Positions 51,971 through 59,637 of a DNA stretch of 64,000 nt are shown in pieces. Origin of the DNA: Rhodohalobacter mucosus (GTDB lineage Bacteria > Bacteroidota > Rhodothermia > Balneolales > Balneolaceae). The notes under the pieces are model-generated. The model worked only from the letters and a program-made list of their open reading frames with translations. It searched no databases and had not been told where the DNA came from. The position numbers and the translations under genes were made by a program. Each line of letters begins with the position of its first letter. Position 1 is the stretch's first letter. The stretch is taken from the NCBI RefSeq assembly GCF_003150675.1, contig NZ_QGGB01000005.1:248001-312000 (forward strand), in the 5' to 3' direction.

Positions 51971-53386
51971 TCAGTCCTCATCTTCCGCTTCACTAAGATA
52001 TCGCTCATACCTCGGCGGAAACTCAAACAGCGGTTCATCCGGAATTTGGGGTAACCGCGGCAGCTGCAGCATGGGTCTGTATGGTTTGAGGCCGGGGTCC
52101 CAGCGAAAATTGCTCAGTTTGCGGTCAACATTGGCGGGATCTTCCGGCAGCCAGGAACCGTCCGGATTTTCTTCTGCCTTGAAAAAGTCAAACTCCCCGT
52201 CTCTGAAAAAGAGGGTGGAGGATCCGTTTGCAATCAGTTCTATCAGCCCGTCGGGCTCCTCGTTTTCATCCTTGATGTGGAAAATGATTTCAGAGTTGTT
52301 GAATACGATGATTCGCTCAACGGATCCGTCTTCAAAATGGGCGTGAAGCGTGTCGCCGGTCATCTGGTGAAGACGCCGGGTGAGGGAGTCTTCCTGTACC
52401 GCAATGGGCCTCGGATGCGAGGATAGAAAACGGATATCATCGTCTTCCATCTCCACTTCAATCACAGGACCGGTAAGCTGAATATTTTTTTGCCATAAAA
52501 CAGGGTTGGATCGCAGAACAAACCGCTCAGCCGAGTTGTCGTAATTGGCCGTATCGCCCACGGCCGAAAATTCATTCGACCAGATCCGCACATTCTCAAA
52601 TGCATCCATGGTTGATACTGAATCGTTTTCCATCAGCTCAATTTTTTTGGCCAGCAGGTGTGTGGTATCGGCCTCGCTTTCGCTGATATCGAGAAGCCAT
52701 GCATCGTTGCCGGTTAGCAGCCGGTAGCCGCTTGAGTCCGCATAGAGATAGTCGCCCTTAAAGGTTACGTTGTCCTCAAAATCCTGCGCGTAGACGCGCC
52801 CGAAGAGCTCATAGAGATCAGTTGACCGATTCATAAACAGGGAATCGGCCTCCAGGTACTGTGTGGAGTCGGCCAGCTGCACATTGCCCCGGAAAATGGC
52901 GCTGTCGGCCTGCTGATAGTACAGGCCGGACTCTGCAACTAGGGCGCCCCGGTCATCCTCGAACCGTACGGGCGACAAAAAAAAGGTGATATCTCGGGGC
53001 ATACTCACGTCCATGGCCTGGCTAAAAAGCCTGTTGTTATCTGACTCCACAACAACACGCCCCCGCAATTCACTGTAATCGGTGAACGTATTGTGGTAGA
53101 GCGTGTCGGCCCAGATAATCTCATTTTCCGTTTCAATCTGGATATTGTAAGCCTGTATGCGGTTCTGAGCGGCAAACTGGTAGACGCTGTCGGCGTACAT
53201 GGTACGGTTGTCGATGGAGAGTATAACGTTATCCAGAAACCTGGTTACGGTCTGTCCGTCAATAATGGACGTCTGCAGTATGTCGGCATCAATTATCGTC
53301 ACGCTGTTTTGTGCCGCTGCCGGTACCGGAATAAGAAACACCAGAATCAGGCCGAATAGATGGTATCGTGGTTTCCTGTGAGTCAT
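51971..53386 (-). CDS. OstA/LptA-like periplasmic protein
   Basis: The 471-aa product has a signal peptide (FGLILVFLIPVPAAAQ). A repetitive beta-strand body of OstA type follows, with recurring units of the form DADxxQ, YADSVYQF, WADTLYHN, LEADSLFMN and YLYADSSGYRL. LptA-like domains form a beta-jellyroll bridge carrying lipopolysaccharide across the periplasm. This protein is about 2.5 times longer than E. coli LptA, suggesting several jellyroll modules; the tail is proline- and acid-rich. Its ATG overlaps the end of lptC by four bases, supporting a shared role. Confidence 0.8.
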   Translation of the reverse strand: MTHRKPRYHLFGLILVFLIPVPAAAQNSVTIIDADILQTSIIDGQTVTRFLDNVILSIDNRTMYADSVYQFAAQNRIQAYNIQIETENEIIWADTLYHNTFTDYSELRGRVVVESDNNRLFSQAMDVSMPRDITFFLSPVRFEDDRGALVAESGLYYQQADSAIFRGNVQLADSTQYLEADSLFMNRSTDLYELFGRVYAQDFEDNVTFKGDYLYADSSGYRLLTGNDAWLLDISESEADTTHLLAKKIELMENDSVSTMDAFENVRIWSNEFSAVGDTANYDNSAERFVLRSNPVLWQKNIQLTGPVIEVEMEDDDIRFLSSHPRPIAVQEDSLTRRLHQMTGDTLHAHFEDGSVERIIVFNNSEIIFHIKDENEEPDGLIELIANGSSTLFFRDGEFDFFKAEENPDGSWLPEDPANVDRKLSNFRWDPGLKPYRPMLQLPRLPQIPDEPLFEFPPRYERYLSEAEDED

Positions 53387-53955
53387 TGCAGTCTGGATCT
53401 GCCGCCCGGTTCAGGTATGGTGTATTCTGAAAGATCGGTAAGGCCATAAAAACCCCTGCCGGTGATGCTGTCAGTGGGAGTAATGATGGTGACGAACCGG
53501 TAGGACGAGATGCTGTCGGTTTTTTGCGACCACATCAGGTAATCCGAAAAGAGCTGCCGGTCGGTGTTGGTTCGTACGGAAACCGAATCAAAAAGCTCAA
53601 ATTCGCTGCTCCTTTCCTTGTACACAGCGCGGTTGCTCCAGGCCTCGGTCTCAACGCTGCCCAGCGAATCAAACAGCTGCACATAAACCGGGCCTGCGAT
53701 GTGTGTCTCCTTTCGGTCGCGTGTTCTGTATCCCACGGCGTAACTTCCTTCAAGCCTCATGCGTGCCCTGCCTTCCTGCATCAGCATCATTTCGACATCC
53801 CAGCTCTCGGTTGTAAAGACCAGCGAGTCGTTCAGCGAACTGCGAACCTGTTGCGCATCATATTCAGAGAGGTCTGCGCAGGCTCCGAACAGAAGGAGGG
53901 AAATAACCGGCACAGGCAGCAGTTTACGCAGTGCCAAAAAAGCGGTCGCCTGCAT
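53383..53955 (-). CDS. lptC: LptC-like LPS export lipoprotein
   Basis: The product has a lipoprotein signal (KLLPVPVISLLLFGACAD) and a beta-rich LptC fold (residues with VFTTESWDVEMMLMQEGRA, then LEGSYAV and the late SYRFVTIITPTDSITGRGF). The open frame extends into upp; the likely start is the ATG at 53955 or the TTG at 53937, both overlapping the upp 3' end by 14-32 bases. LptC hands lipopolysaccharide from the ABC transporter to LptA. The pair with the OstA-like gene supports the call. Confidence 0.75.
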   Translation of the reverse strand: MQATAFLALRKLLPVPVISLLLFGACADLSEYDAQQVRSSLNDSLVFTTESWDVEMMLMQEGRARMRLEGSYAVGYRTRDRKETHIAGPVYVQLFDSLGSVETEAWSNRAVYKERSSEFELFDSVSVRTNTDRQLFSDYLMWSQKTDSISSYRFVTIITPTDSITGRGFYGLTDLSEYTIPEPGGRSRLQ

Positions 53956-54577
53956 CGCCCAGACCCGGTACGATGAATGCATCTTCATTAAGTTTTTCGT
54001 CAACCGCTGCAGTGATAATCGGGACATCGGGATGTGTACTGTTGATTCTTTTGAGTCCTTCTGGAGCACAAATTAACGAAATAAAGAGAATGTTTTTTGC
54101 ACCATGTTTTTTCAGGTACGAAATGGCATCATCAGCGCTTCCGCCGGTTGCAAGCATAGGATCCACAACGAGCGTCAATCCCTGATCAATGCCGTCGGGG
54201 ATGTTCGAGTAATAGTCAACGGGCTTGTGTGTAGTTTCGTCTCTGTACATGCCAAGATGGCCTACATGAGCATCCGGAACAAAATCGATGATGGCATCTG
54301 CAAGACTTAATCCCGCCCGCAGAATGGGGATCACAAATATGCTTGTGTCAATTTCAAAGCCTTCCGTTTCAGTAACGGGCGTTTCAATGCGGGTTGTGCG
54401 GAGCGGTAACCCTTTAAGTGCATAGTATGCCAGAATGGTGGCTATTCTGGCCATGGCAGCCCGAAAGCCTGCGGTACTGGTCTCTTTTTTTCGCAGAATG
54501 GAGAGGTCGCGCGCCACCAGCGGGTGGTCGATTATCGTTACGTTTTCGTGTTCGTAATCGCGTTTTAACTCCGCCAT
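53924..54577 (-). CDS. upp: Uracil phosphoribosyltransferase
   Basis: The 217-aa salvage enzyme makes UMP from uracil and PRPP. Motifs: SILRKKETSTAGFRAAMAR near the front, VPILRAGLSLADAIIDFVPD, HLGMYRDETTHKPVDYYSN, and the PRPP loop VVDPMLATGGSADDAI. The C-terminus GDAGDRFFGTA is the usual ending of UPRTases. Its 3' end overlaps lptC. Confidence 0.96.
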   Translation of the reverse strand: MAELKRDYEHENVTIIDHPLVARDLSILRKKETSTAGFRAAMARIATILAYYALKGLPLRTTRIETPVTETEGFEIDTSIFVIPILRAGLSLADAIIDFVPDAHVGHLGMYRDETTHKPVDYYSNIPDGIDQGLTLVVDPMLATGGSADDAISYLKKHGAKNILFISLICAPEGLKRINSTHPDVPIITAAVDEKLNEDAFIVPGLGDAGDRFFGTA

Positions 54578-54665: not shown

Positions 54666-56288
54666 TCACACCTCCGTATTTTCGAAGTAGGTTTTGGTCA
54701 TATTGTAAACCACTCCGGAAAGGGCAAACAGTGCGATAATATTGAAAAACGCCATTAGTCCGAGCATCACGTCTCCAAAAGCCCAGACGGTGGTAAGCGC
54801 AACCGTGGCCCCGAAAAAGTGCATCAGAACAAATGCGATGCGGTACCAGAAGATAGACTTGAATCCGAAAAGGTACTGCGCAGCACGGTCGCCATAGTAG
54901 CTCCAGCTGATGGATGTGGAAATGGCAAACAGCAGTACGGCAAATGTTACCACAAATCCGCCGCCCGGAAATAGGGGCGCGAGGCCAATCTCAAAGGCCC
55001 TGGATGTAAGCGGAGCACCATTTTCGATCACACCTCCGTATATACGCTCCTGCTGACCTCCCGTTTCAAGAACAATGACGGGTTCCGTTCCGATGTTCTC
55101 GATGGTTCCTGTAAAGAGAGTGGTTCTGGCTTCATCGGCAAACATCGTATCGACGGGTACATTGTAGCGAAGCATGGCACCGTTAACGGGCAGGCCCTCC
55201 TCAAAAAGAAGCGTATTGCCGTTATCCTCAACGGTGTAGGATATCACACCGTCTGCGGGGTCGACGGATGCAGGATGAAACTGATCCCAGGCGCCGGTTG
55301 AAACAATGACCAATCCGGTGATGGTACAGATGATAAGCGTGTCAATGAAGGGTTCGAGCAGTGCTACCACGCCCTCCCGAACGGGTTGATCTGTTTTTGC
55401 CGCAGAGTGAGCAATCGGAGCAGAACCCTGTCCGGCCTCATTAGAGAAAAGGCCTCGCTGCACACCATAGCTGAGTGTAAAAATAAAAGCACCGGATCCA
55501 ACACCCAAAACACCGGCCTGCGGATTAAATGCGTTGCTTAAAATTACCCAGAATGAAGGCAGTATCTGGTCGAAGTTCAGCAACAGAATCAACAGCCCGC
55601 CCAGAACATAGAGGGTAGCCATAAAGGGTACAAGGCGGGCCGTTACATATCCGATCCGCTTGATTCCGCCGAGAATCACCGCACCCACAAGGCTGGCGGT
55701 GACAAGACCCGTAATCCAAAATGGAATTTCAAAATCACTGTTCATTACATCGGCTACGGTATTGGCCTGAACGGCGTTGCCGGTTAAAAAAGCACAGATT
55801 GCTGCAGAGATGGAGAACGCTATGGCAAGCCATTTCCAGTTGGGGCCGAGACCTTTCTCAATATAGTACATGGGTCCTCCCGACACGCTGCCGTCCGGAT
55901 TGTTGACCCTGAATTTCTGTGCTAGCGAAACTTCCGTATACTTGATCGCCATACCCAATACGGCCGTAATCCACATCCAGAAGAGAGCTCCGGGGCCGCC
56001 AAAATGAATGGCCAGTGCCACACCGGCAATGTTCCCGATACCGACCGTGGCTGACAATGCCGTTGTGAGAGCCTGAAAATGGTTGATATCCCCTTCATCT
56101 TCAGGGTCATCATAATGACCGGTTACAACCTTGATGCCGTGCCTGAATTGCCGTATTTGAATAAAACCGAGACGGATAGTAATAAAAATACCGTAGGAGA
56201 GAAGGATGACCACCATGGCGGGCATCGCTTCCGGTGTATTCCAGATAAGGTTTACAAGCCAGTTAATGACGCTTTCAAATAGTTCCAT
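54666..56288 (-). CDS. Amino-acid:sodium symporter (AGCS/DAACS-type alanine or glycine)
   Basis: This 540-aa transporter has the AGCS signatures SATVGIGNIAGVALAIHFGGPGA (about 80), GGPMYYIEKGLGPNWKW (about 140), LSYGVQRGLFSNEAGQGSAP (about 275) and STSISWSYYGDRAAQYLFG. About eleven membrane helices are visible. It is longer than the usual 450-aa family member because of a roughly 90-residue hydrophilic, beta-rich insert after TGAWDQ (residues about 335-425). The insert lies in a loop that is short in most relatives and probably faces the periplasm. Alanine or glycine is the likely substrate by family. Confidence 0.88.
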   Translation of the reverse strand: MELFESVINWLVNLIWNTPEAMPAMVVILLSYGIFITIRLGFIQIRQFRHGIKVVTGHYDDPEDEGDINHFQALTTALSATVGIGNIAGVALAIHFGGPGALFWMWITAVLGMAIKYTEVSLAQKFRVNNPDGSVSGGPMYYIEKGLGPNWKWLAIAFSISAAICAFLTGNAVQANTVADVMNSDFEIPFWITGLVTASLVGAVILGGIKRIGYVTARLVPFMATLYVLGGLLILLLNFDQILPSFWVILSNAFNPQAGVLGVGSGAFIFTLSYGVQRGLFSNEAGQGSAPIAHSAAKTDQPVREGVVALLEPFIDTLIICTITGLVIVSTGAWDQFHPASVDPADGVISYTVEDNGNTLLFEEGLPVNGAMLRYNVPVDTMFADEARTTLFTGTIENIGTEPVIVLETGGQQERIYGGVIENGAPLTSRAFEIGLAPLFPGGGFVVTFAVLLFAISTSISWSYYGDRAAQYLFGFKSIFWYRIAFVLMHFFGATVALTTVWAFGDVMLGLMAFFNIIALFALSGVVYNMTKTYFENTEV

Positions 56289-56489: not shown

Positions 56490-56774
56490 ATGACGAAAGC
56501 TGATATAGTAGACGTAATCTCATCTGCGACAGGAATTACCAAAGTTGAGACCGAAGCCGTTGTAAAAGGATTTCTCGATACGGTTATAGACGCCATGAAA
56601 AGGGGTGAAAATATCGAACTGCGAGGATTCGGCAGTTTCAAGGTAGTTAAGAGGGCCCAGCGTGTTGCGCGAAATCCCAAAACCAATGAAGAAGTGATTG
56701 TACCCGAGCAGTATGTCCCCATGCTCAAAGTGTCGAAAGATTTCAAGGAAGCTGTAAATAAATCCCACAGCTGA
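56490..56774 (+). CDS. HU/IHF-family DNA-binding protein
   Basis: This 94-aa nucleoid protein matches the HU length. It has TKADIVDVISSATGITKVE at the start, IELRGFGSFKVVKRAQRVAR (beta-arm base), and NPKTNEEVIVP in the DNA-contacting arm, then a terminal helix. HU and IHF subunits cannot be told apart here. The spacer to the symporter gene (56289-56489) is divergent and A/T-rich. Confidence 0.93.
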   Translation: MTKADIVDVISSATGITKVETEAVVKGFLDTVIDAMKRGENIELRGFGSFKVVKRAQRVARNPKTNEEVIVPEQYVPMLKVSKDFKEAVNKSHS

Positions 56775-56849: not shown

Positions 56850-58685
56850 ATGATCCGCACAAAATACACCTGCATTTTGCTGCTGCTCACTTTTTTGGTG
56901 TCCTGCAGCACCATTCCCGATTCGGATTATTACGAATCGGACGGAATCCTGTCAATAAAAACAGGCGCTGAAAGTGCCCCGCCGGGATGGTTTGCCGAAC
57001 CTCTCGACCTCACTCACTCTTTGGTTTACAGGGGCCAAATCAACGAACATGATCCTTCATTTCAATTCCGGTTCTATCTTCAGAATCCTGGAACCTATCG
57101 CCTGTCGCTTCTTTCGGCCTATCTATCTGAAGAGAGCGCAGAAAACGTGTCGATTACCATATCCGGGCCGGACGGTTTTCTGGCCGGCAGCGTTTCGATG
57201 GCCCCTCCAGTTTCACGCATACCCTATTGGATAAGCATTGGATCGACCGGTGAGCCGGCCTCCGTATCTCTGGAGAAACCCGGAATCTATACGATCCGGA
57301 TCAGTCATGCGGCAAGAAGTGGACTTGTTATCGATGCACTGCAGCTTACCCTGAATAATGAACATCCTCCTGAGGGAATGGGATATCCGGAAACCCGGCA
57401 GCCCGACTCGGAGCCCCGCTTCAAGAAAAGGGAGCAGGTTGTTGCCATACCTCCTTCAACCGCATTCGGGGTTATCGCCGATTCAGCGGTTATGGACGAA
57501 ATCACCGGAACGGTTCCCGATGAAAGGCTTGAGGAAGTGCTTATACGAACGCACGGGTCTGAACCCGGTTCAGTCAGCCGGCTTGAGCATCTGAAAAATA
57601 GTTTTATTGAAAGCATAGAAAGAGAAGATGACAGGGGATTTGTGCTGCACCCTGCATCCGGGATTGGGAATCCTGAGTTTAAGAAATATCCCGCGCTTTG
57701 GTTTACGGGTGGCCTGACTGAATTTGAAGAGCTACAGCGTCAGCTCACGTATCTGAGTGATCCGTCTATCCCAGCCTACGAAATCCCCTTTTTTGCACCG
57801 ATGCCCGAATGGCTCACTGACAACAAGGATAGTGATAGTGAAAGCGAGGTTACGGGTGAACTGCTGCTGCGCTGGGTTCAGTTGAGCATGTTGAGTCCAG
57901 TTATGGTACTGCCCCTAAATGAGCGGGATCAGGTGGATCGGCTTGCGGACCGGGACCGTGCCGATATAAGGGAAGCGGTGCGTTTACGGAGAAACCTATT
58001 TCCGTTCATCTACAGTTATACATTGAGGGCCAGAACGTCGGGTGTCAGGACCGTAACAGCGGCCGACAGCCATGATGGCGCTATCCGTTACGGAGAGGAA
58101 CTTTTCGCTGTGCCCGTATCGGCGAGCGGCACGGATCGATTGCCCGTTCATTTTCCGGAGGGTGACTGGTACTCGTGGTGGGACGGGCAACGATTTGAAG
58201 GCGGGCAGACCTGGCTGATCGACGTATTCAGAAACCGTCTGCCTCTTTTTGTGAAAGCGGGAAGTATTATTCCGCAGCGCACGGAGGGACTTCCCGTAAA
58301 CCGGGATACAAACGAAACTCTTACGGTAGATGTCTTTGCGGGAGGCGTAAGTTCATTCAGGCTTTATGAAGACGACGGAACAACTCTCGACTACAGGGAA
58401 GGTGAATTTTCCACCACGGCATTTCGCTGGTTTGAGCAGGAGGGAAGGGCTACATTCAACATCGGTGCAATGGTCTGGGGCAGAGGAGAGGAGTACAGAA
58501 CCGATACCCGGTACCTGCTCAGGTTCCGGTATCTGAGGCCGCCTTTGGGGGTAACGGCAAATGGTGATGAGTTATCTGAAGGCATGGATACAGGAGAGTG
58601 GTATTACGATGAGCAGCTGCAGGCGGTAGTATTAGACTGGAAGCAGTCCAGCAGCAGGCGAACGGAGTTTGAATTCGTATGGTGA
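56850..58685 (+). CDS. GH31-derived lipoprotein lacking catalytic residues (probable pseudoenzyme)
   Basis: The 611-aa product has a lipoprotein signal (ILLLLTFLVSCSTI, Cys at about 19) and an N-terminal beta-sandwich (about 45-180) resembling a carbohydrate-binding module. From about 255 it follows the second half of a GH31 barrel: GFVLHPASG, ALWFTGGLTEF where GH31 has WxGD (acid/base Asp replaced by Gly), EIPFF in place of DIGGF, LLLRWVQLSMLSPVMVLP, and RRNLFPFIYSYTLRART. The GH31 C-terminal sandwiches follow (FPEGDWYSWWDG, FVKAGSIIPQ, RLYEDDGTTLDY). The first half of the barrel with the nucleophile WxDMNE motif is missing. It may bind a glycan at the outer membrane; activity is unlikely. 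Confidence 0.72.
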   Translation: MIRTKYTCILLLLTFLVSCSTIPDSDYYESDGILSIKTGAESAPPGWFAEPLDLTHSLVYRGQINEHDPSFQFRFYLQNPGTYRLSLLSAYLSEESAENVSITISGPDGFLAGSVSMAPPVSRIPYWISIGSTGEPASVSLEKPGIYTIRISHAARSGLVIDALQLTLNNEHPPEGMGYPETRQPDSEPRFKKREQVVAIPPSTAFGVIADSAVMDEITGTVPDERLEEVLIRTHGSEPGSVSRLEHLKNSFIESIEREDDRGFVLHPASGIGNPEFKKYPALWFTGGLTEFEELQRQLTYLSDPSIPAYEIPFFAPMPEWLTDNKDSDSESEVTGELLLRWVQLSMLSPVMVLPLNERDQVDRLADRDRADIREAVRLRRNLFPFIYSYTLRARTSGVRTVTAADSHDGAIRYGEELFAVPVSASGTDRLPVHFPEGDWYSWWDGQRFEGGQTWLIDVFRNRLPLFVKAGSIIPQRTEGLPVNRDTNETLTVDVFAGGVSSFRLYEDDGTTLDYREGEFSTTAFRWFEQEGRATFNIGAMVWGRGEEYRTDTRYLLRFRYLRPPLGVTANGDELSEGMDTGEWYYDEQLQAVVLDWKQSSSRRTEFEFVW

Positions 58686-58914: not shown

Positions 58915-59637
58915 ATGAATGAAAAGTCACAGCTTTCGCTGGATCTTTTTACCAGGGTTCAGGATGATCTTGAAAAAAGACGGTATCTCATTCTGGGCGA
59001 ACTTAAAGAGATCTCTTCCCGCTTTCAGTACTACAAAATATACCCGCATCTGAGTGAGCTTGTAGAGCTGCGTAATACGCTTGCGGATATCATCAGCCGT
59101 CTGCAGGATCTCAGAAATAAATTTCCGAAACGGATCGGGAAAATTGACTGGGTGAACCGAACGATTGAGCATGAAGTGGTTTTTGTGGACGGTACGGATT
59201 TGTCGGCAGTTCAGGATCTCATTATCTGGGCGCTTCCCAGGATTGAAAAAGTGATTGAGGAGGGGGCTGCCATTCATGAATTTGTTGAAAGGGAACTTTC
59301 GGTGGAGCAGGTGGGCATACTGCCCAATTACAGGGAAGAAGGATATTTTTTTCTGCCCGACAATAAAAAGAGACTGTTGAACCTCTTTCGCTTTGAGGTA
59401 TCCATTTTTCAAAGTTCGGATGACCGTTACAGGGCGTTAAAAACAACCTACATGAAATCATTGAAGCAGGGAGGAGCCCTACGGTCGCCGGGCTCCATCA
59501 AGCTCGATCTGATCCGCGAAGTGAAAGAGCTGCCCAATCCGGCCACGTACTCGTTTAACACACAGCTCGATTTCTCATTTAGTCATACCATTCTGCCGGT
59601 TGCCAAGCGAAAGCTGATGCAGACGATCTATCACTGA
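58915..59637 (+). CDS. Conserved-looking protein of unknown function
   Basis: This 240-aa soluble protein has a good ribosome-binding site (GGAGG seven bases before the ATG). Helical segments dominate (LFTRVQDDLEKRRYLILGEL, LVELRNTLADIISRLQDLR). Later sequence has a WVNRTIEHEVVFVDG strand pair and ends with FSFSHTILPVAKRKLMQTIYH. No signal peptide, membrane helix or named motif is seen. It lies between the GH31-like gene and purine nucleoside phosphorylase. The 229 bp before it contains a weak palindrome near 58700-58770 only. Confidence 0.65.
   Translation: MNEKSQLSLDLFTRVQDDLEKRRYLILGELKEISSRFQYYKIYPHLSELVELRNTLADIISRLQDLRNKFPKRIGKIDWVNRTIEHEVVFVDGTDLSAVQDLIIWALPRIEKVIEEGAAIHEFVERELSVEQVGILPNYREEGYFFLPDNKKRLLNLFRFEVSIFQSSDDRYRALKTTYMKSLKQGGALRSPGSIKLDLIREVKELPNPATYSFNTQLDFSFSHTILPVAKRKLMQTIYH

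Follow-up and report, generated by a model that had tools for sequence, protein, structure and literature searches.

The gene at positions 56850 to 58685 of the window (the whole 64,000-nucleotide stretch of Rhodohalobacter mucosus DNA that was analysed) encodes a predicted lipoprotein whose derivation from a GH31 enzyme, as the first-pass annotation proposed, is supported by comparison of its clade with intact cousins, and which by its sequence is catalytically dead: a pseudoglycosidase, descended from an active-type glycosidase, with the catalytic residues gone. The pseudoglycosidase concept is already known, and what is unusual here is the graded series to which the protein belongs: it begins with a full barrel that has both catalytic residues, passes through a full-length dead barrel and ends at half a barrel and less, and its dead forms stay at a single chromosomal site and are under purifying selection. 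With such a series one could ask which GH31 parts are able to serve a non-catalytic role, and how far a TIM barrel can be cut down in a protein that still folds. No GH31 half-barrel series was found in the literature searched (limited and open-access, mostly titles and the starts of abstracts), nor did anything in the open-access literature searched join GH31 with pseudoenzymes. The explanation that I favor, and to which I would give an even chance of being right, is a lipid-anchored envelope protein of GH31 descent that is non-catalytic and probably glycan-binding. The features on which the argument draws are as follows.

51971..54069, minus strand: LptC-like and OstA/LptA-like genes, conserved neighbors (PF06835, PF13100; synteny)
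53924..54577, minus strand: uracil phosphoribosyltransferase gene (upp), conserved neighbor (PF14681; synteny)
54666..56288, minus strand: Na:alanine symporter gene, conserved neighbor (PF01235; synteny)
56490..56774, plus strand: HU DNA-binding protein gene, directly upstream, conserved neighbor (PF00216; synteny)
56850..58685, plus strand: pseudo-GH31 lipoprotein gene, 611 aa, frame intact, orthologues found
56850..56906, plus strand: predicted signal peptide and lipobox (LVSC), residues 1-19, read from the sequence
56922..57359, plus strand: N-terminal beta-sandwich, GH115_C-like, residues 25-170 (strands of the predicted model; weak PF17829 matches in the family)
57447..57473, plus strand: barrel strand 1 motif IPPSTAFGV, residues 200-208, aligning with LPPYWAFGV of an intact cousin
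57474..57623, plus strand: remnant of the deleted barrel strands 2-4, residues 209-258 (alignment; low pLDDT; dN/dS highest in most relative pairs)
57630..58049, plus strand: barrel strands 5-8 and helices, residues 261-400 (PF01055 tail; R262, R341, Q344, R380 and Y388 kept)
58050..58283, plus strand: proximal C-terminal GH31 sandwich, residues 401-478 (PF21365; high pLDDT)
58317..58682, plus strand: distal C-terminal sandwich (DUF5110) and tail, residues 490-611 (PF17137; clade-specific fixed R504, R526, G539)

The frame is open from the ATG at 56850 to the stop codon at 58683-58685, confirming the 611 intact codons first reported, and a scan for promoters and terminators found nothing above shuffles. 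When all 3.9 Mb of the genome were searched with the barrel family, the encoded protein was the sole GH31 barrel match. The C-terminal half of a barrel followed by two sandwiches, already recognized in the first reading, is borne out by Pfam: Glyco_hydro_31_3rd matches at residues 409-474 (E 2.3e-11) and DUF5110 at residues 490-540 (E 1.1e-14), and since PF21365 and PF17137 are both above cut-off, both GH31 C-terminal sandwiches are present. The barrel family PF01055 is matched by its tail only (E 1.4e-5, residues 261-389, corresponding to profile positions 209-327 of 328), and a complete (beta/alpha)8 GH31 barrel is thus not found. At the other end, the LVSC lipobox gives the protein the lipoprotein signal looked for in a surface glycan-binding protein (as a predicted lipoprotein), its Cys stands at the same place in every relative with a complete N-terminus, and Cys19 would be the lipidated residue.

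What has been lost becomes clear from alignment with the intact cousins, which have at least 185 positions between barrel strands 1 and 5. Only 63 of 185 are left in the window protein, the nucleophile Asp column in strand 4 is deleted, and the acid/base site WxGD reads WFTGG, with an Asp there in none of the 27 clade proteins, which supports the loss of this Asp proposed in the first reading; a recognizable nucleophile Asp survives in L018, L025 and L028 only, and perhaps in L004. Of the initial statement that the half carrying the nucleophile was gone, the absence of the nucleophile and of most of the strand 1-5 stretch holds, but strand 1 (IPPSTAFG) is still there. The notion that DIGGF had turned into EIPFF has to be withdrawn: in intact cousins YEAPF directly precedes AHDAGGY. 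EIPFF therefore corresponds to the conserved YExPF, and the motif that became APMPEW is DAGGY itself. Across the clade the erosion is graded, the long forms (657-717 aa) having 108-146 positions between strands 1 and 5 and a recognizable barrel, and the short forms (574-638 aa) keeping 37-94 of 185: 63-94 in general, and no more than 37-39 in L017, L019 and L020.

Structure prediction leads to the same picture. AlphaFold2 models, based on five family members and GH31 fragments with few full-length sequences, gave a mean pLDDT of 77.3 for the window protein, with the strands of the N-terminal sandwich mostly at 80-93 over residues 70-170, values below 50 at residues 177-197 and 223-246, and low confidence for strands 1 and 5. 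The model has no full barrel, the strands of barrel positions 2-4 being missing, and it still superposes on GH31 enzymes: the top 50 Foldseek matches were all GH31 structures, and VIA-align 2 gave Z 33.3 against 7f7q (rmsd 2.8 A over 403 residues) and Z 28-33 against the other listed GH31 entries. The model of the long-form relative L033 has strands along the entire barrel region (Z 35.7 against 7knc, rmsd 3.2 A, 437 residues). With the GH31 glycosidases FjDex31A dextranase (6JR6), CjAgd31B (4B9Y) and Xac1773 (7KMP), the window protein shares barrel strands 5-8, both C-terminal sandwiches and the EDDG motif region, but unlike them it is without the nucleophile, the acid/base and strands 2-4, and it has a GH115_C-like N-terminal domain and a predicted lipid anchor.

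That N-terminal domain did not come in to replace the missing half of the barrel, as the first-pass annotation had supposed of it and the lipoprotein signal. Intact cousins occur in G107 (another family of the order), in G303 and G497 (another family), in G248 (a third family) and in G034 (another genus of the same family, with the gene split over two contigs), and in the alignment each of the five shows Asp at the two catalytic positions; by Pfam the full barrel spans PF01055 positions 3-327, 3-328 and 2-328 (of 328) in G107, G303 and G248, respectively. In G107, G303 and G497 the sandwich stands ahead of an intact barrel (it is absent in G248 and G034), in the same order of sandwich, barrel and two sandwiches as in the window protein, and G107 also has a lipobox. 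The sandwich is therefore ancestral and the barrel was eroded in place, and a swap of half the barrel for the sandwich can be rejected. All intact cousins also have the PPxWAFGVLYGGY and KYPTKW-type motifs at the same places as the window protein, from which they differ in possessing the full barrel and both Asp. As to the identity of the sandwich, PF17829 (GH115_C) matches 16 of 25 family members weakly (best E 3.2e-6; 23.9 bits against a cut-off of 24.1 in one full-length relative) and does not match the window copy, and a PDB profile search with the domain reached only E 0.38 at best. Separately, in L232:8487-10262 and in L170/L162 a GH31 barrel with both catalytic Asp lies right behind the signal region, without the N-terminal sandwich.

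Some match to the window protein was found in 49 of 92 genomes of the same family, and orthologues with the same N-terminal domain were found in two genera only: that of the window, where 23 of 28 species have the gene if the window is counted, and a sister genus, with 4 species. The 26 orthologues all lack the acid/base Asp, and none of the 27 reading frames, two of which are cut by contig ends, has an internal stop, when neutral drift would lead one to expect about 5-27 stops per close pair. Counting estimates of dN/dS, taken from pairs of relatives as the window copy is too diverged for a pairwise value, are 0.09-0.20 in close pairs (synonymous-saturated pairs left aside). By domain, five pairs were usable, and in four of them the strand 1-5 segment has the highest value (0.21-0.46; in L017/L020 it is 0.12), the domains outside it lying at 0.05-0.23. 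These estimates show purifying selection on the remaining parts of the pseudo-GH31, in keeping with the first impression of a gene that is selected and not decaying; a frameshifted or decaying gene is rejected. The clade has 95 columns with a conservation of 85% or more. The enzymes share 55 of these, 31 are mixed, and 9 are new in that the enzymes lack them; four of the nine (R504, F525, R526 and G539) fall in the distal sandwich. As only 8 enzyme rows were compared, this pattern is a lead and not a test, and shared ancestry and the small number of enzyme sequences may account for part of it.

In every orthologue locus long enough to test, the gene lies directly downstream of HU on the same strand (75-215 bp where measured), beside the Na:alanine symporter, upp and the LptC/LptA-like genes. 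The HU-symporter neighborhood also exists in genomes without the pseudo-GH31, and the site is for this reason a fixed address and not evidence of function. Two minor points concern the neighbors in the window: as listed, the LptC-like ORF (53383-54069) and the upp ORF (53924-54577) share 146 bases, and LptC probably starts further in; and a 240-aa ORF downstream of the pseudo-GH31 on the same strand (58915-59637) matches nothing in Pfam at E 1e-4, nor do the compared neighborhoods contain a copy of it.

The genomic links to glycan degradation do not point to alpha-glucan: those of some lineages are with beta-glucan genes (GH16, GH3), and that of another is with GH125. Unlike the window, the G107 locus holds its intact cousin together with LacI, GH16, GH3 and an MFS transporter, and that of G303 lies beside GH125. 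Within the window's genus, GH16 follows the pseudo-GH31 gene in G053 and GH3 does so in G054, and the window's own genome has GH16-GH3 on a different contig, in the company of GH30, GH17-like genes and a transporter. That beta-glucan-type cluster (L219 and L220 on contig C7: two GH16, GH30, three GH17-like genes, an MFS_2 transporter and GH3) is joined to PD40/peptidase, RNase R-like and TamB-like genes that elsewhere follow the pseudo-GH31, a gene order which suggests that a rearrangement split the old neighborhood. At the thresholds used, GH3 occurs in 12, GH16 in 8 and the pseudo-GH31 in 23 of the 28 genomes of the genus; the pseudo-GH31 is not dependent on GH16 or GH3, because it is found in many genomes where neither was found, and a strict tie to beta-glucan degradation is rejected. 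One GH3 relative, L242 (G059:C219:8124-9389), has a TAA inside the matched stretch and may be a pseudogene or reflect the end of an assembly. At L230:7963-11549 an intact GH31 cousin, which also has the N-terminal sandwich, adjoins a GH125 alpha-mannosidase gene, and the ancestral substrate may therefore not be a glucan.

How might such a protein work? The lipobox would direct export, followed by anchoring in the outer membrane; no hydrolysis would be expected; and the three sandwiches and the residual half-barrel would form a non-catalytic binding platform, most likely for glycan, with a newly evolved putative site (R504/R526/G539) in the distal C-terminal sandwich. Descent, domain content and precedent point to glycan as the ligand, and the GH16 or GH3 genes that several relatives have next to the gene or elsewhere in its locus speak for it too, although an inherited sugar pocket is doubtful because the active-site cleft is largely destroyed. 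The precedent (PMC7828330) is that pseudoglycosidases such as YKL-39 keep glycan binding; YKL-39, klotho and CyRPA are, like the pseudo-GH31, non-catalytic glycosidase descendants, but they belong to other GH families, and in the pseudo-GH31 part of the barrel itself is deleted. The surface glycan-binding proteins of beta-glucan loci (PMC7157763) share with it the state of a lipoprotein now or formerly beside GH16 and GH3, whereas the pseudo-GH31 is GH31-derived, is kept where the GH16/GH3 pair was not found and has no SusC/SusD-like gene beside it in the window, the neighbors being HU, the symporter, upp, lptC and lptA.

The main rival, which I consider possible but distinctly less probable, keeps the same pseudoenzyme and gives up the glycan: it would have been exapted as a protein-protein scaffold or an accessory of envelope assembly. 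The newly fixed residues lie in the distal sandwich and not in the old cleft, the gene outlives the GH16/GH3 pair, and its site beside housekeeping genes is stable, all of which would suit a scaffold. So would the example of 4F2hc, whose GH13-like ectodomain stabilizes amino-acid transporters (PMC8537225); the ectodomains of 4F2hc and rBAT resemble the pseudo-GH31 as membrane-anchored glucosidase-like domains without proven activity, 4F2hc likewise being without catalytic residues, and differ from it in belonging to GH13, in their complete barrel and in having a transporter as partner. The pseudo-GH31, however, has no known partner, and synteny names none since the same neighbors occur in relatives without the gene.

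That the gene is a relic on its way out, under residual selection only and with a barrel shrinking stepwise towards loss, is unlikely: 27 intact frames, dN/dS of 0.09-0.20 and the strong conservation of the sandwiches and of the second barrel half all speak against it, even though the proteins shorten progressively from 717 to 574 aa and some genomes have no orthologue. G051 (86% complete) and G060 have no match to the window protein at all, G065, G067 and G068 have generic GH31 matches only, and in four of these five a GH16 or c6 gene comes directly after HU; G060, G065, G067 and G068 are of high completeness, with GH16 or the next housekeeping gene in that place (GH16 alone in G065, G067 and G068). 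Still more improbable is a protein that remains an enzyme, its residual barrel relying on other carboxylates or on different chemistry; one could cite for it the conservation of R262 (strand 5) and other second-half barrel residues, and the nucleophile Asp kept in L018, but no carboxylate is conserved clade-wide at either catalytic position, and the short forms are without strands 2-4.

Returning to the binding platform, the number of times the barrel collapsed bears on its history. In the best tree, built without the eroded columns, short forms fall into three groups with long forms between them, which implies three collapses, given that strands once deleted are not easily regained; the number is uncertain because a single clade of all short forms is not rejected (p-AU 0.063). 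A tentative idea, which I would sooner bet against than for, is that the catalytic TIM-barrel half was lost three separate times in the same gene, and that the gene, its site and its outer domains were kept because a new binding site had by then arisen in the distal sandwich of the early pseudoenzyme, leaving the half-barrel as a dispensable spacer. By unordered parsimony the changes number two, and the branch leading to the window copy is long, at 1.1 changes per column.
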